Shown here piece after piece: positions 16,596 to 39,772 of a stretch of DNA of 39,772 nucleotides. The stretch comes from Butyrivibrio sp. (GTDB lineage Bacteria > Bacillota > Clostridia > Lachnospirales > Lachnospiraceae), in assembly GCF_017635265.1 (NCBI RefSeq), contig NZ_JAGBLU010000049.1, forward strand, positions 1-39,772, in the 5' to 3' direction. Below the pieces are notes generated by a model. It did no database searches, was not told where the DNA came from, and saw only the letters and a list, made by a program, of their open reading frames with translations. The position numbers were made by a program, and so were the translations under genes. Each line of letters begins with the position of its first letter. Position 1 is the stretch's first letter.

Positions 16596-17645
16596 ATGAG
16601 GAGTAAGACTATTTTAGTAGTTTTAACCCTTTCCGTTTTTCTTTCAGGTTGTGGGAGTCTGGCCGGAAGACACGGGATTGATTCCGGCTTTGCATATATT
16701 GAGAGTCATGAGTATACCAGTGCTCTTGAGAGTTTTGATGAAGCTTTGGAGCGCGGCGAGGATGCTTGCCTTGTCCATAGAGGGAAGGGAATAGCATATT
16801 TTTATAGCGGGGAATATGAACAGGCAGTAGAGGAACTGCTTTCTTCGCTTGCAGCTGATGAGGGAATAGTTGATGATATGGATTTTGACACCAATTATTA
16901 TCTTGCGGAAAGCTACATGAAAATCGGCGAATATAATAAGGCCAAAGAAGTATATGACGCTATTATCGGGTTAAAGAGCGGAGATATAAATGCTTATTAT
17001 CTGAGAGGAACCTGCGAACTTGCTGCAGGCAACCATGATGCGGGATATGCAGATTTTACCAAGGCTATATCGCTTAATCCCAAGGACTATTCCATGATGA
17101 TCATGATATATAAAGCTCTTGCTGAAAATGGTTATGAGGAGGAAGGAACTTCCATAATTACCAGAGCCCTTGAGAATGGCAGTGATTACATGACTAACTA
17201 TGAGAAGGGTCAGATATCTTTTTACCTTGGTAATAATGCTGATGCCCAAAGCTATCTGGAAGCAGCCAGAAGTGAGAGAGATCAGGAAAAAGAGCCTGTG
17301 GTTCTTTTGCTGGGACAGACAGGAGAAGTTCAGGGTGACTATAACTATGCAATCAGTGTGTATAAAACTTATCTGTCCGAGAACCCAAGCAGCGCAAAGG
17401 TGTATAATCAGCTTGGAATGTGCCAGATAAAGCAGGGCGACTATGAAGGTGCAGTTTCTTCATTTCAGTCAGGTATAGAGATTAATGACAAATCTCTTAA
17501 TCAGGCTCTTATGCTCAATGAGATTACAGCGTATGAATATATGGGTGAGTTTGGGCTTGCATCATCTCTTATGACAACTTATCTTCAGAGTTATCCACAG
17601 GATGAGGTGGCGCTTAGAGAGAATGTCTTCCTGTCAACAAGGTGA
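16596..17645 (+). CDS. TPR-repeat lipoprotein
   Basis: A 349-residue exported lipoprotein. The signal peptide MRSKTILVVLTLSVFLSGCG ends in a lipobox with Cys19 as the lipidated residue. The rest is about eight TPR units (YYLRGTCELAAGNHDAGYAD, VYNQLGMCQIKQGDYEGAVS), a scaffold fold for protein contacts at the outer face of the membrane. No enzymatic motif. It starts nine bases after ridA and is likely co-transcribed. Its partner is unknown; the second zinc-ribbon/TPR protein upstream has similar extracytoplasmic repeats. Confidence 0.85.
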   Translation: MRSKTILVVLTLSVFLSGCGSLAGRHGIDSGFAYIESHEYTSALESFDEALERGEDACLVHRGKGIAYFYSGEYEQAVEELLSSLAADEGIVDDMDFDTNYYLAESYMKIGEYNKAKEVYDAIIGLKSGDINAYYLRGTCELAAGNHDAGYADFTKAISLNPKDYSMMIMIYKALAENGYEEEGTSIITRALENGSDYMTNYEKGQISFYLGNNADAQSYLEAARSERDQEKEPVVLLLGQTGEVQGDYNYAISVYKTYLSENPSSAKVYNQLGMCQIKQGDYEGAVSSFQSGIEINDKSLNQALMLNEITAYEYMGEFGLASSLMTTYLQSYPQDEVALRENVFLSTR

Positions 17646-17669
17646 TATGACATTGCAGCCATTTTGTTT

Positions 17670-17835
17670 CTAGTGTAGCTGTTTTATATTAACTCGACTA
17701 TATGCTTGCTATAATTTGAATCTACTGCGTTGTCATCAGTCGTCGATGGACGCCCATCGACTCCATCTTCCGCCTTGTAGATTGTAAATTATATCTAAGC
17801 AATATAGTCGAGAAATATAAAAACAGCCACACTAG
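17670..17835. repeat. palindromic intergenic element, copy 1 (166 bases)
   Basis: Starts CTAGTGT and ends ACACTAG. The 55-base left arm pairs with the 53-base right arm almost throughout. A 58-base core runs from CTGCGT (17725-17730) to CTTGTAGAT (17774-17782) and has an 8-bp apical stem GTCGATGG/CCATCGAC with an ACGC loop. The same architecture recurs at 21081-21244. It could be a MITE-like element (TGT...ACA ends within CTAG) or a structured RNA. No ORF. Confidence 0.75.
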
Positions 17836-17881
17836 ATATTAATATGACCGTTAAATGTCACTATATATTTAAATAGTAACT

Positions 17882-17990
17882 GCGATATTTAAAGACCGTG
17901 TATATTCAAATAATGTTTGCGATATTTAATGATCGTGTATATTCAGATAATGTTTGTGATATTTATTGACCGGAGTAATAATATATGTTT
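17882..17990 (+). repeat. three tandem 37-base repeats
   Basis: Units at 17882-17918, 17919-17955 and 17956-17990 (the last two bases shorter) share GYGATATTTA near the start, and the first two agree at about 34 of 37 positions. They lie upstream of the polysaccharide genes and could be operator repeats. TTGACC in the third unit (17966-17971) might be a -35 element. Confidence 0.7.
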
Positions 17991-17995
17991 AGATT

Positions 17996-18024
17996 AAAAA
18001 TCCGCAATTGCTGCGGATTTTTTG
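17996..18024 (+). terminator. intrinsic terminator
   Basis: Perfect 11-bp stem AAAAATCCGCA (17996-18006) with TGCGGATTTTT (18012-18022), 5-base loop and further T. Its A- and T-rich flanks would let it stop transcripts from both sides. Confidence 0.75.
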
Positions 18025-18072
18025 ACTGTTTTTTGGAGTATAGTAAAAATAAATGCTTTTGGAGGAGTATGT

Positions 18073-18867
18073 ATGAAGATAACTGTATTTAATGAGTGGG
18101 ACCATGTGCCTAAGGCAGAGTATGAAGGTGAGAAAAATGTGGTACTTGCCTGGGATGGAGAGTACAGAAAGGGCGATGTTATAGAATTTACCGGCCTTGT
18201 TCCCGGAAAGTTTTATGTTGTAAAAGTTGACGCAGCGGTGGATTCGGCTTTGGTTTTGGTTGATCAGGAAACTGTAGATTTTACTGTTCCGTTTTATGAG
18301 AAAAAAACAAGTTACAATCCGCTTGCTTTCTTTGGCAACAGACATGTGGTTACTATTAGAGAAGCAGAGGATTATGAAGTTACAGCTTATAGGAATATTG
18401 CTCTTAATCCTTTTGATCAGCATGAAGTGTCAGGTGTTTATCCACATGCAAGTGCCAACGTTGAGACAAGAGGTGAAGCCGTTTTTGCTGCAAGAAATGC
18501 AATCGACGGTTGCATAGCAACTCTCTCACACGGCGAATGGCCATATGAGTCCTGGGGAATAAACAGGCAGGATGATGCAGAGTTTACTTTGGATTTCGGA
18601 AGAGAAGTAGATTTTGACAGGATAGTTCTTTATACAAGAGCTGATTTTCCGCATGATAACTGGTGGGTAGAGGCTACTTTTACTTTTTCGGATGGCAGCA
18701 GCGAAGTTGTCACGATGGACAAAAAGGTTGCAGAGCCGCATGTTTTCAACATTGAAAAGAAGAATATAAGATGGATCAAGCTGGGAAAACTTATTAAAGC
18801 AGATGATCCAAGTCCATTCCCTGCACTGACACAGATTGAAGTGTACGGAACTGAGGCTTCGAAGTGA
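18073..18867 (+). CDS. discoidin (F5/8 type C)-like carbohydrate-binding protein
   Basis: A 264-residue soluble protein without signal peptide. The C-terminal half has the pattern of an F5/8 type C or CBM32 jelly-roll: ARNAIDGCIATLSHGEWPYE, WGINRQDDAEFTLDFGREVD, DRIVLYTRADFPHDNWW and a closing TQIEVYG. The N-terminal 110 residues are also beta-rich and unidentified. Upstream in-frame codons to 18022 are open, but the ATG at 18073 has GGAGGAG five bases ahead. It lies 100 bases before a heparinase-like lyase, so binding of the same glycan is likely. No catalytic residues were recognised. Confidence 0.75.
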   Translation: MKITVFNEWDHVPKAEYEGEKNVVLAWDGEYRKGDVIEFTGLVPGKFYVVKVDAAVDSALVLVDQETVDFTVPFYEKKTSYNPLAFFGNRHVVTIREAEDYEVTAYRNIALNPFDQHEVSGVYPHASANVETRGEAVFAARNAIDGCIATLSHGEWPYESWGINRQDDAEFTLDFGREVDFDRIVLYTRADFPHDNWWVEATFTFSDGSSEVVTMDKKVAEPHVFNIEKKNIRWIKLGKLIKADDPSPFPALTQIEVYGTEASK

Positions 18868-18967
18868 TGAACATGATATTGCACAGGTGCTAAAAGCGTC
18901 TGTGCAATATTCTATATGCTTATGGTAGCGTAATATATTCACATTAAGTTATGAGGAATGATTATTT

Positions 18968-20995
18968 ATGAATAGGACAATAGTACAGCATTATGTGGAT
19001 GTAACAAGTGGTTGTGGAATTTATTCAGAGTATCCGGATATTTCTGATAGAGATAAATGGGAGAGATTGTCAGATAAACTTAAAAACAAATTGATAAAGG
19101 CCGGTGAAGAGGCTTTGAATGAGCCATGGACGCAGCTTCTTATTTCAGATTTCATGGAATTTAAGAAATCAGGAAACAGAGTAAGGTTTGAGGATAAGTT
19201 TTTTCCGAGAAGAAGAAAACTAAATAGCCTCGTTATGGCCGAGTGTGTTGAGAATAAGGGAAGATTTTTAGGGGATATTCTGGATGGTCTTTATCTTATT
19301 TTAGAGGAAACCACCTGGTGTCTTCCGCCCCATACAAGCTATGTTCGTGACGGAGTGCAGGAGGTAGTTCCTGATGTGACAAGGCCTATCATAGATCTTT
19401 TTGATGCTGAGTCGGGAGCGGAGGTTGCTTTTGCTGAGTATGTATTGAGACCTGTTTTGAAGGACATAAGTCCGTTTATCAGTACTTATGTCAATGAAAG
19501 ACTTAAAGAGAGAATATTTACACCATATCTGGAACAGCATTTCTGGTGGATGGGAAATGGCAAGGAACCAATGTGTAACTGGACTGTATGGTGTACACAG
19601 AATGTCCTTATCAGCGTACTTACAAGACCTGAAGATTTCTTTTCCGAAAAAGAAAGGAGAGTCTTTATTGAGAAAGCTGCTAAGTCCTGCGACTACTTTC
19701 TTGATGAGTACGGCGAAGATGGAGGCTGTGATGAGGGAGCCCAGTATTATTCCCATGCAGCTCTTTGCCTTTTCGGATGTCTGGAACTGATGAGAGGAGC
19801 TCTTAAAAACAGTAAGACAGGTACCGATGATAGAAACAGGTCTTGTGAAGATGGAATGGAAAGTGGCATAGAATCCGGGGCTGAGGATTATTCTTTTAAC
19901 GGGATATTCTCAGATAAACTGATCAGAAATGTAGCCAACTACATCGTCAAGATGTATGTGGGGAACGGCTATTATGTGAACTTTGCGGATTGCAGCGCTA
20001 TGGCAGGCGGAAGGACAGCAAGGGAGTATCTGTTCGGAAAGGCTACAAAAGATAAGGTTTTGTCTACATTTGCTGCGCTTGATTTCCAGAAACAATCAGA
20101 AGACGGTCAGCTTGTCAGTGAAGAAATAAATCTCTTTTACCATTTCATTCAGGCTTTTGCCTATGATGAGATGATGAATGTCTCCGGGGAGGCCGGAATT
20201 CCTGAGGATGCTTTTTTTGAAAGCGTTGGTCTTATGGTTGCCAGAGACGGTGTATATACACTTGCAGCCAAAGCGGGAGATAATGCAGACAGTCACAATC
20301 ACAATGATGTTGGCTCTTTTACCATATATAAAGACGGTAAGCCGTTGGTAATTGACCTTGGAGTTGGGACCTATACTCAAAAGACTTTTTCTGACAGGAG
20401 ATATGAAATATGGACAATGCAGTCACAGTTTCATAATCTTCCGACTTTTATTGACGAAATGGGAAACATTGATGAACTGGGGAATGATGCGGCAAAAGAT
20501 GTCTATAACAAGGCTTACGTCATGGAGCATGACGGTGAAAAATACAGTGCAGGTTATGTAAACTGTATACTGTGCAGCAATTTGGACTATAATTCCGATA
20601 AGTGTGTATCCTCACTTTCAATGGATATTGCCGACGCTTATGGAGATGAACGTATAAGAAGCTACAAGCGTACAGTCAGCCTCATTAAAGGGCAAGGCGT
20701 TTGTGTTGAGGATAGTTATGACGGTGATCTTAAGGCTGTAGTAAGTTTAATGACTTATGATAAGCCGGAGATTGAGGTGATTTCGACATCTGAAAGTTGT
20801 GAGAAATCCGGTGAAGGTAAAATTCTGGTGCGAATAGGAAATTTGGGATTTGCAGAGATAACCGGTGCAGAATCAGCTACTGTAAAAGCATATCCTGTTA
20901 CGGATGAGCGACTTTCTATTGCCTGGAAGCACGAAGTATACAGAGTGCTTTTTGAACTTGGACATTGCAATAAGCTTGAGATGAAGTTTAGATGA
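18968..20995 (+). CDS. heparinase II/III-like polysaccharide lyase
   Basis: A 675-residue protein with an N-terminal helical toroid (to about residue 400) and a C-terminal heparinase II/III beta domain. The C-terminal domain opens with NADSHNHNDVGSFTIYKDGK, where His443 and neighbours are family active-site or metal residues, then VIDLGVGTYT and a YEIWTMQSQFHNLPT stretch. Family members cleave uronic-acid polysaccharides by beta-elimination, leaving a 4,5-unsaturated uronate, which fits the GH88 gene that follows. No signal peptide is seen, so it probably acts in the cytoplasm on imported oligosaccharides. A short acidic, Asp/Gly/Ser-rich insert lies near residues 283-305. The substrate (heparan, alginate, other) cannot be decided. 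Confidence 0.87.
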   Translation: MNRTIVQHYVDVTSGCGIYSEYPDISDRDKWERLSDKLKNKLIKAGEEALNEPWTQLLISDFMEFKKSGNRVRFEDKFFPRRRKLNSLVMAECVENKGRFLGDILDGLYLILEETTWCLPPHTSYVRDGVQEVVPDVTRPIIDLFDAESGAEVAFAEYVLRPVLKDISPFISTYVNERLKERIFTPYLEQHFWWMGNGKEPMCNWTVWCTQNVLISVLTRPEDFFSEKERRVFIEKAAKSCDYFLDEYGEDGGCDEGAQYYSHAALCLFGCLELMRGALKNSKTGTDDRNRSCEDGMESGIESGAEDYSFNGIFSDKLIRNVANYIVKMYVGNGYYVNFADCSAMAGGRTAREYLFGKATKDKVLSTFAALDFQKQSEDGQLVSEEINLFYHFIQAFAYDEMMNVSGEAGIPEDAFFESVGLMVARDGVYTLAAKAGDNADSHNHNDVGSFTIYKDGKPLVIDLGVGTYTQKTFSDRRYEIWTMQSQFHNLPTFIDEMGNIDELGNDAAKDVYNKAYVMEHDGEKYSAGYVNCILCSNLDYNSDKCVSSLSMDIADAYGDERIRSYKRTVSLIKGQGVCVEDSYDGDLKAVVSLMTYDKPEIEVISTSESCEKSGEGKILVRIGNLGFAEITGAESATVKAYPVTDERLSIAWKHEVYRVLFELGHCNKLEMKFR

Positions 20996-21080
20996 AGTTT
21001 ATGAAGTTCAGGTAAAGCTCAGATAATAAGTTTGTGGCGATTACTAACAGTGATTTTACTTTTTAAACGCAAATAATTAC

Positions 21081-21244
21081 CTAGTGTACTGGCTCATTCA
21101 TAATTAACCAAATTGTTTGTCTATGAATTCATCAGCTGCGTCAAAAATTCTCGACAATGCCCGCATTGTCATCGAATTTATTTCCTTGCAGATAAATCCA
21201 TATACTTCACAATTTGATTAAAGATGAACGAGTCAGCACACTAG
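21081..21244. repeat. palindromic intergenic element, copy 2 (164 bases)
   Basis: Same plan as 17670-17835: CTAGTGT start, 55-base left arm, 58-base core from CTGCGT (21136-21141) to CTTGCAGAT (21185-21193), 51-base right arm and ACACTAG end. The apical stem is GACAATG/CATTGTC with a CCCG loop. The arms pair with each other but show near-chance identity to the arms of copy 1 past the first eight bases. Confidence 0.75.
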
Positions 21245-21281
21245 GCTGAGAAATTGTAAATGATAGCATAGTTATATTAGT

Positions 21282-21315
21282 GGGTGCAGTTGCAGGTTTT
21301 AAAGCAACTGCACCC
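21282..21315 (+). terminator. strong hairpin, probable terminator
   Basis: GGGTGCAGTTGC (21282-21293) and GCAACTGCACCC (21304-21315) form a perfect 12-bp stem. The trailing T-run is short (TATCTTTAT), so termination efficiency is uncertain. Confidence 0.55.
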
Positions 21316-21542
21316 TATCTTTATAATTGAGATTTCCTAAGAATGGAATTTTCGGACAAGTACACCCCCAGGTTTTGATTAAATTATCTGCTCTAAGATT
21401 CATTTTGCTAAAAATAAGCAATAATTAATATAAAATATACATTATTTTTTACTTCAAAAGACTGTACTATATTATCTGGTGGATAGATTTAAGCATCGTT
21501 CCACCGTTTACAGTAAAGTAATTATGCTTTGGGAGGAAAATT

Positions 21543-22700
21543 ATGGGATTAATCAGTGGCGAAGACTTACAGTGGGTCAATGATACATTAAAAAAAATAG
21601 AAGATAAGATGGTTCCTGTAACTGAAAGAAACAGGGATAAGATTCCATATACCACAGATGAAAATGGAAGATTTGATGACAGATCTGATGAAAAAGAAAT
21701 CTGCTGGTGGACAAATGGTTTTTGGGGCGGCGAGATGTGGCAGCTCTTTAAACTTACAGGAAATGAGATGTTTAAGGAAGAAGCTCTGCAAGTTGAAAAA
21801 AAGCTTGATAAAGCATTTCTTAATTACAACGGAATGGATCATGATGCCGGATTCAGGTGGCTCCCCACATCTGTAATTAATTACAAACTTTATAAAAGTG
21901 ATGATTCAAAAAACAGAGGCCTTTTGGCAGCTAACAGTCTTGCCGGGCGTTTTAACATGAACGGCAATTTCATAAGAGCGTGGAATGACTGGGGAGATGG
22001 GAGAGATACAACAGGATGGGCAATCATTGACTGCATGATGAATCTTCCTCTGCTGTACTGGGCATCAGATGTTTTAGGTGATCCAAGATTTAAGAAAATT
22101 GCTATGGCTCATGCAGATACTGCAATGAAGAATTTTATCAGAGAGGATGGATCTGTAAGGCACATTGTTGGATTTGATCCATTTACCGGGGAGTTTGCAA
22201 GAGAATATGGCGGACAGGGATATGGTGAAGGATCAAGCTGGACAAGAGGACAAAGCTGGGCAGTATATGGATTTGCTTTAAGCTATATTCATACTGGTGA
22301 AAAGAAATACCTTGAAACTGCTATGAAAGTGGCTGATTATGTACTTTCTGAAATTCCGGATACTTTCCTTGTTCCGATAGACTACAGGCAACCCAAAACT
22401 GATGATCTTGAGGACTCAACTGCTGCGGCTATTACAGCAGGTGGTCTTATTGAGATTGCCAGGAGTCTTATGGGAGAAGGTAAAGAAGACCGTGCAAAAG
22501 AGTACCTTACAGCTGCTATTAAGCTGTTAAAAGCACTTGACAGTCACAGCTGTGATTACACCCTTGATAAAGACAACCTTCTGACCAGAGGTTCTGTTGA
22601 CTATCATGGAAACGGACATCACATGGCAATAATTTATGGTGATTATTATTACATTGAAGCGCTTATGAAATTAAACGGAAGCGCACTTGAAGTTTTCTAA
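21543..22700 (+). CDS. GH88 unsaturated glucuronyl hydrolase
   Basis: Removes the 4,5-unsaturated uronic acid from the non-reducing end of oligosaccharides made by polysaccharide lyases, by hydrating the double bond. The 385-residue product is full length for GH88 and predicted as an alpha/alpha six-barrel. ICWWTNGFWGGEMWQLF, MDHDAGFRW (Asp101) and TTGWAIIDCMMNLPLLYWAS (Asp163) supply the two catalytic aspartates, at the spacing of Asp88 and Asp149 of the Bacillus enzyme. EGSSWTRGQSWAVYGFAL forms the subsite stretch. No signal peptide, so cytoplasmic. It follows the heparinase-like gene and precedes DUF2264. Confidence 0.95.
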   Translation: MGLISGEDLQWVNDTLKKIEDKMVPVTERNRDKIPYTTDENGRFDDRSDEKEICWWTNGFWGGEMWQLFKLTGNEMFKEEALQVEKKLDKAFLNYNGMDHDAGFRWLPTSVINYKLYKSDDSKNRGLLAANSLAGRFNMNGNFIRAWNDWGDGRDTTGWAIIDCMMNLPLLYWASDVLGDPRFKKIAMAHADTAMKNFIREDGSVRHIVGFDPFTGEFAREYGGQGYGEGSSWTRGQSWAVYGFALSYIHTGEKKYLETAMKVADYVLSEIPDTFLVPIDYRQPKTDDLEDSTAAAITAGGLIEIARSLMGEGKEDRAKEYLTAAIKLLKALDSHSCDYTLDKDNLLTRGSVDYHGNGHHMAIIYGDYYYIEALMKLNGSALEVF

Positions 22701-39562: not shown

Positions 39563-39645
39563 TTGCATTTACAATTTTATATGATCATCCATTTTTATGA
39601 TATAGCCATAGGACCTGGCAACGTCCGCCACCCTGATGACTGAAC

Positions 39646-39743
39646 CTGATGGAAACGCAGTAGCCATCTTGCCGACGGTGAGGATGATGGGAACAGTAAT
39701 CTTTCACTCACCGTCGGTTCCTGCATTGTAGCGTTTCCATCAG
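39646..39743. repeat. GC-rich nested palindrome at the right edge
   Basis: Outer stem CTGATGGAAACGC (39646-39658) with GCGTTTCCATCAG (39731-39743), inner stem CCGACGGTGAG (39672-39682) with CTCACCGTCGG (39707-39717), both perfect. The final 12 bases CACCTAGCGGTG form another small hairpin. The base composition differs from the rest of the window, suggesting a mobile element end or structured RNA cut by the edge. Confidence 0.6.
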
Positions 39744-39772
39744 AACCAGTAAAGGGCCAGCACCTAGCGGTG

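Follow-up and report, generated by a model that had tools for sequence, protein, structure and literature searches.

The cut-and-paste steps by which members of the IS630 family move are known from elements studied by others, and the IS630 of Shigella sonnei was reportedly found by Tenzen and Ohtsubo in 1991 to prefer, as its target, the TA that is located within CTAG. The REP/REPIN sequences that occur with RAYT are dispersed inverted pairs that form hairpins. Among small elements, RUP of Streptococcus pneumoniae has a length of 107 bp and ends that match IS630-Spn1, which has been proposed as its mover; the excerpt of the same source that is used here states that, for such small elements other than RUP, IS matches were not sought or not found (PMC2229807).

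The stretch of DNA that we have analysed, referred to as the window, is one contig of 39,772 nucleotides from a 4.15 Mb draft genome of Butyrivibrio sp. that is 88% complete. It contains, on the forward strand, two long imperfect palindromes, identified by their ends, fold and flanks: element A (17673-17832, GTGT...ACAC, 160 bp; 17670-17835 with its CTAG flanks) and element B (21084-21241, 158 bp; 21081-21244 with its CTAG flanks). The flanking TA dinucleotides are located at 17671-17672 and 17833-17834 for A, and at 21082-21083 and 21242-21243 for B. Re-measurement has confirmed the fixed plan described in the initial annotation, i.e. these coordinates, the ends CTAGTGT and ACACTAG, left arms of 55 bases (17670-17724 and 21081-21135) and cores of 58 bases (17725-17782 and 21136-21193). 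The arms had also been described as pairing without matching, and this description holds: the predicted folds of A (-68.8 kcal/mol, z -10.6) and B (-52.6 kcal/mol, z -8.2) were equalled by none of 200 dinucleotide shuffles each, and beyond the eighth base the arms of the two elements agree approximately at the level of chance, at 18 of 47 positions on the left (12% of shuffles as high) and at 15 of 43 on the right (39% of shuffles as high). In the cores, 30 of 58 positions are identical, a value that none of 5000 shuffles reached. No open reading frame of at least 100 aa overlaps A or B; the two copies are located between genes (16596-22700) for a TPR protein, a DUF7402 (F5/8-type-C-like) protein, a heparinase II/III-like protein and a GH88-like hydrolase.

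The comparison of the ends of A and B with those of IS630 elements from related genomes has revealed two types of IS630, both of which score as IS630 transposase (NF033545) and also as DDE_3. Type 1 is a split-ORF IS630 of about 1.28 kb that is bracketed by CTA and TAG and has ends like GTGTACTGACATNTTGATATTTA, found in genomes G183, G225 and G099 and, among Butyrivibrio, with both ends in G066 (two copies) and G015 (one copy) and as pieces in others; these three full-length Butyrivibrio copies contain stop codons by a program count, and the first half of the type 1 product (172 aa), taken alone, scores under the cut-off. Type 2 (401 aa in G026, present also in G010) has the ends GTATAACCGTTATTAATTAACTCGACTGT, likewise in CTA/TAG, and its transposase is 34% identical to that of type 1 over about 200 residues. 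A match to either type occurs in nine of 79 genomes of the genus, and DDE_3 has been found in five of 18 genomes. The ends of A agree with type 2 at 26 of 36 positions at best (ISs in L322 and L323; none of 2000 shuffles as high) and with type 1 at 13-16 of 36; the ends of B agree with type 1 at 23-27 of 36, the best being 27 of 36 (IS in L317; none of 2000 shuffles as high), and with type 2 at 16 of 36. The converse pairings, A with type 1 and B with type 2, are no better than shuffles. The terminal repeats, whose lengths are approximate, are accordingly placed in A at 17673-17700 (left, plus strand, containing ATTAACTCGACT, by end match to type 2) and 17805-17832 (right, minus strand, by fold and end match), and in B at 21084-21114 (left, plus strand, by end match to type 1) and 21211-21241 (right, minus strand, by fold and end match).

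We consider it very probable that A and B are non-autonomous MITEs of the IS630/Tc1-mariner family, whose arms differ as the ends of two IS630 lineages and in which a shared core has been combined with different ends. The initial annotation had pointed to transposases with matching ends as partners of such elements, and IS630 transposases are indeed bordered by similar ends within CTA/TAG. In this model, the terminal repeats of approximately 30 bases would be bound by an IS630 transposase that is provided in trans, the element would be cut out as GTGT...ACAC, and the excised element would be pasted into the TA of a CTAG, with duplication of the TA; A and B would answer to two IS630 lineages with differing terminal repeats, while their common centre would be a structured module, not seen in the type 1 and type 2 ISs, that has been joined to different ends. 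The copies, the empty sites, the TA flanks, the end matches and the common core have been observed directly. Mobilisation is suggested by the matches of ends and target at the level of sequence; we infer the movement by type 1 and type 2 transposases, the cut-and-paste steps, the swapping of ends and whatever role the core may have.

The flanks of the copies bear on the second of these steps. TA is present on both flanks of 52 of the 57 full copies that we have tabulated, distributed as 43 C-TA...TA-G, seven T...G, one A...G and one C...A; the table omits copies truncated at contig ends, repeat entries for a single copy, double-hairpin copies, L153, L159 (right flank TT, not TA), L216, L219, L222 and L223 (left AA, right TAA), L230, L238 and L239, and counts both L064 and L139, which are one insertion in two genomes. 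In all eight copies with TTA or ATA on the left, the right side reads C-TAG and never TTAG or ATAG, so the duplication is more likely one of TA than of CTAG. Compared with the earlier assignment of the ends as TGT...ACA within a duplicated CTAG, GTGT...ACAC between duplicated TA is the better fit to the flanks of the 57 copies, as well as to those of the double-hairpin copies, where TA occurs on both sides in seven of nine without the CTAG rule. The variation is lopsided, the left base being other than C in eight of 52 copies and the right base other than G in one of 52, and this is not predicted by simple TA duplication; at L052, where the copy has TTAG on its left, CTAG is present in the relatives without the element, and the left base of this copy may therefore have changed later. 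Such a later mutation is also conceivable for the other copies with TTAG or ATAG on the left if it is CTAG that is duplicated.

Empty sites with a single CTAG, which had been expected of a mobile element, were sought with the joined flanks of 15 element loci against 79 genomes, and are present, among the 30 matching loci and six further stretches examined, at no fewer than three of the 15 loci (L052, L062 and L064), each in two or more relatives, with some relatives reading CCAG, CAAG or CTGG at the empty site. Among the matches listed, the junction was aligned at nine of the 15 loci, six of them without CTAG (C64, L053, L054, L058, L059 and L063); for the other six loci, both window copies included, no junction-spanning relative was found among the matches listed. 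At one CTAG site (L037/L038 compared with L052, pieced together from two contig ends), A copies lie in opposite orientation in two species, namely in the genome of the window and in G008, as either independent insertion or inversion in place would produce. Adjoining elements with one CTAG in common, as though the insertion of one had taken place at the end of its neighbour, occur at L039, L204/L270, L146, L152 and L238. At L273, a copy from G225 is located at a CTAG inside an open reading frame, which it ends after 80 residues of the stretch examined; insertion is thus not confined to intergenic DNA.

Further copies, which the initial annotation had predicted, are present both in the genome of the window and in related genomes. 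Element A has ten matches in its own genome (139-166 bases, 99-100% identity, of which nine, at 99%, are additional to A itself), three interior and seven at contig ends, which corresponds to at least seven real copies, and A-like copies occur also in G008, G019, G044, G065 and G003. Element B has partial relatives in the same genome, one of which adjoins an A copy with a single CTAG common to both. Several of the IS200-like Y1 transposases of this genome (L099-L103) are likewise cut at contig ends. At the contig end of the window itself (39621-39772), there is a second structured repeat of about 150 bases that is unrelated to A and B, with two copies at 87-91% in L033, one of them beside the A copy of L033, and copies at 78-81% in relatives (L136, L137/L158 and L323).

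A pattern scan of species genomes has returned 30 stretches: ten from Butyrivibrio, 15 that belong elsewhere by title (eight Lachnospiraceae, three Bacterium 1XD21-70, two uncultured bacterium, one Eubacterium and one Clostridiaceae), one from a Veillonellaceae MAG, where the layout of the element differs, and four that were left out as chance (L141, L142, L162 and L165). A covariance model of the core matched in 30 of 200 sampled genomes of the family, the genome of the window included, its copy counts per genome being lower bounds because no more than 19 candidates were scored in each, and G225 (99% complete) contains 17 copies at 156-160 of 160 identical positions. The arms of these relatives pair as had been anticipated: 17 of the 18 aligned sequences form the fold when folded singly, the exception being L152, which adopts another fold. 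Plasmids gave no match to A or to an L169 element, phages no match to the L169 element, and viral contigs no match to three patterns. Relatives with a double hairpin (L231-L237, L218 and L275) have a length of 271-273 bases and contain two cores in inverted orientation, with outer stems that are long, while apparent remnants of about 36-45 bases, with both ends kept and the hairpin core lost, are seen in L241 (about 1472-1514), L264 (about 1501-1537) and L045 (near 1480-1525).

The structured core region, delimited approximately from the alignment, the consensus structure and covariation, is located at 17705-17802 in A and at 21116-21210 in B, both on the plus strand, and it can be compared with the ends in a matrix of 16 elements, in which ends regarded as unrelated score about 34-50%. 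The elements of G163 and G171 are 93% identical in the core and 50% in the ends, those of G163 and G183 92% and 47%, and those of G163 and G099 90% and 44%; conversely, G163 and G225 are 63% identical in the core and 84% in the ends. Cores that are 90-93% alike next to ends that are 44-50% alike make core and ends look exchangeable, and the simplest reading of these sequence identities would be that a single core lineage has acquired different ends by exchange. It is possible, though doubtful, that core and ends were never exchanged and that elements and IS lineages diverged together; the cores of A and B are just 55% identical, as old common descent would allow, but the opposite disagreements of the G163-G171 and G163-G225 pairs, read as pairwise identities and not from a tree, argue against such joint divergence.

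Within the core, CTGCGT (from 17725 in A and from 21136 in B) and CCTTG, the latter found in CCTTGTAGAT (17773-17782) and CCTTGCAGAT (21184-21193), do not vary in any of the 18 rows of alignment A2, from which L153, L158, L159 and L164, among others, are omitted (alignment A3 omits also L152 and L140). In the consensus structure the two motifs are opposed at an internal loop, with TGC on one side and CTT on the other; an outer CTTG that faces CTGCG is kept in most relatives, and not fully in A and B. The structure from 16 sequences has 30 pairs, 21 of which show changes on both sides, and 92.9% of its cells pair, compared with 76.7% in shuffles and 23-45% when the alignment is slid, where the shuffles take no account of relatedness and the structure comes from the same alignment. 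This covariation and this invariance, together with the location of both window copies just after genes, are what a structured RNA or regulatory hairpin under selection, with incidental mobility, would show; nevertheless, near-identical copies occur at unrelated sites, and the search of Rfam 15 gave no match to the window at the gathering score and a single match, at the level of chance, near one relative, so that we regard this account of the elements as unlikely, even if an RNA or regulatory role is compatible with the MITE reading as far as the core is concerned. Tentatively, and with less conviction than for the MITE identity, we suggest that the core, a folded centre with an invariant internal loop that sometimes occurs twice per element, may be a selected structured module that spreads by the exchange of IS630 ends, i.e. 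that it parasitises several transposon lineages and that its folded centre would be recognised, as folded DNA or RNA, by a factor of the host or the transposase.

The arms of A and B, under the MITE reading, disagree because they carry the end repeats of different IS630 lineages: the outer 30 bases or so are the repeats of two lineages, and a given transposase has to fit the two ends of its element alike, so that neither selection on structure nor palindrome repair is needed as the main cause. The initial annotation, which had seen a mobile palindromic family shaped by selection on structure or by palindrome repair, was thus right about the family. Selection on structure would still be a sound account of the inner core, with its covarying stems and invariant internal loop. 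Plain palindrome repair would be expected to have erased this loop, which survives. It is accordingly very improbable that the arms were symmetrised within each copy by palindrome repair or gene conversion, a process that would explain pairing within copies and divergence between subfamilies, but not the retention of the same left/right differences by the A copies nor the way in which arm sequences follow the IS630 end types.

The search for the transposases themselves has given negative results in several carriers. No IS630 transposase was matched in the genome of the window, though its A copies look recent, and none was found in the A carriers G044 (88% complete) and G008 (99% complete); ten end matches in the genome of the window to the longer ends of the A type contained no autonomous IS. 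The presence of a matching transposase in the same genome is, however, not a strict requirement for a MITE. Two IS630s were found in G225, both with type 1 ends, and no type 2 IS630; the ends of the G225 element agree at 14 of 36 positions with type 1 and at 21 of 36 with type 2. Neither of the two IS630s matches these ends, so the transposase partner of the G225 copies is missing or unrecognised. The ends of the G225 type have 50 matches in G225 and five in G163, and no transposase was found at five loci with unpaired ends (L241, L250, L257, L260 and L264). In the gene neighbourhoods of 73 loci there is no recurrent transposase, the largest cluster, which we take to be an ABC-type ATPase, holding five loci. 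It is most improbable that the elements are REP/REPIN-like hairpins moved on single strands by a Y1 (IS200/RAYT) transposase, since the long hairpin, the lopsided flanks, the lack of a recurrent neighbouring transposase and the Y1 genes of the own genome and of 15 of 20 further genomes are outweighed by TA on both sides, by ends that match IS630 and by five of the 20 genomes, all of them element carriers and including the copy-rich G225 and G265, in which Y1_Tnp was not detected.

With A and B read as IS630 MITEs, the striking pattern of arms that pair without matching is explained by ordinary transposon biology, and a repeat that is apparently unannotated in Butyrivibrio and its relatives is assigned to the IS630 family; what is isolated as a puzzle is the same folded core in MITEs with ends of IS630 lineages that are 34% alike, which makes end-swapping in MITEs directly testable. 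Among the known systems, the IS630 of Shigella sonnei shares the preference for TA in CTAG, but it is an autonomous IS, whereas A and B have no gene. REP/REPIN sequences resemble A and B in their hairpins and differ from this family, which is flanked by TA and has five carriers without a detected Y1 gene. MITEPsy1 of Pseudomonas syringae is also a MITE, of 100 nt, inserted at CTAG (or YTAA); according to the excerpted text, it differs in its 4-nt duplication and in its ends, which are like those of ISPsy2, tentatively of IS5 (PMC3189936). ERIC and Correia/NEMIS are likewise small, with TA at their ends and long stem-loops, and occur in other hosts, while RUP is, like A and B, a small intergenic element with a TA target and ends that match an IS of the IS630 family; in the excerpt of its source, no core common to two IS630 end types is described (PMC2229807). 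IS630 MITEs such as RUP are already known, and what is unusual here is a structured core that is common to different end types.
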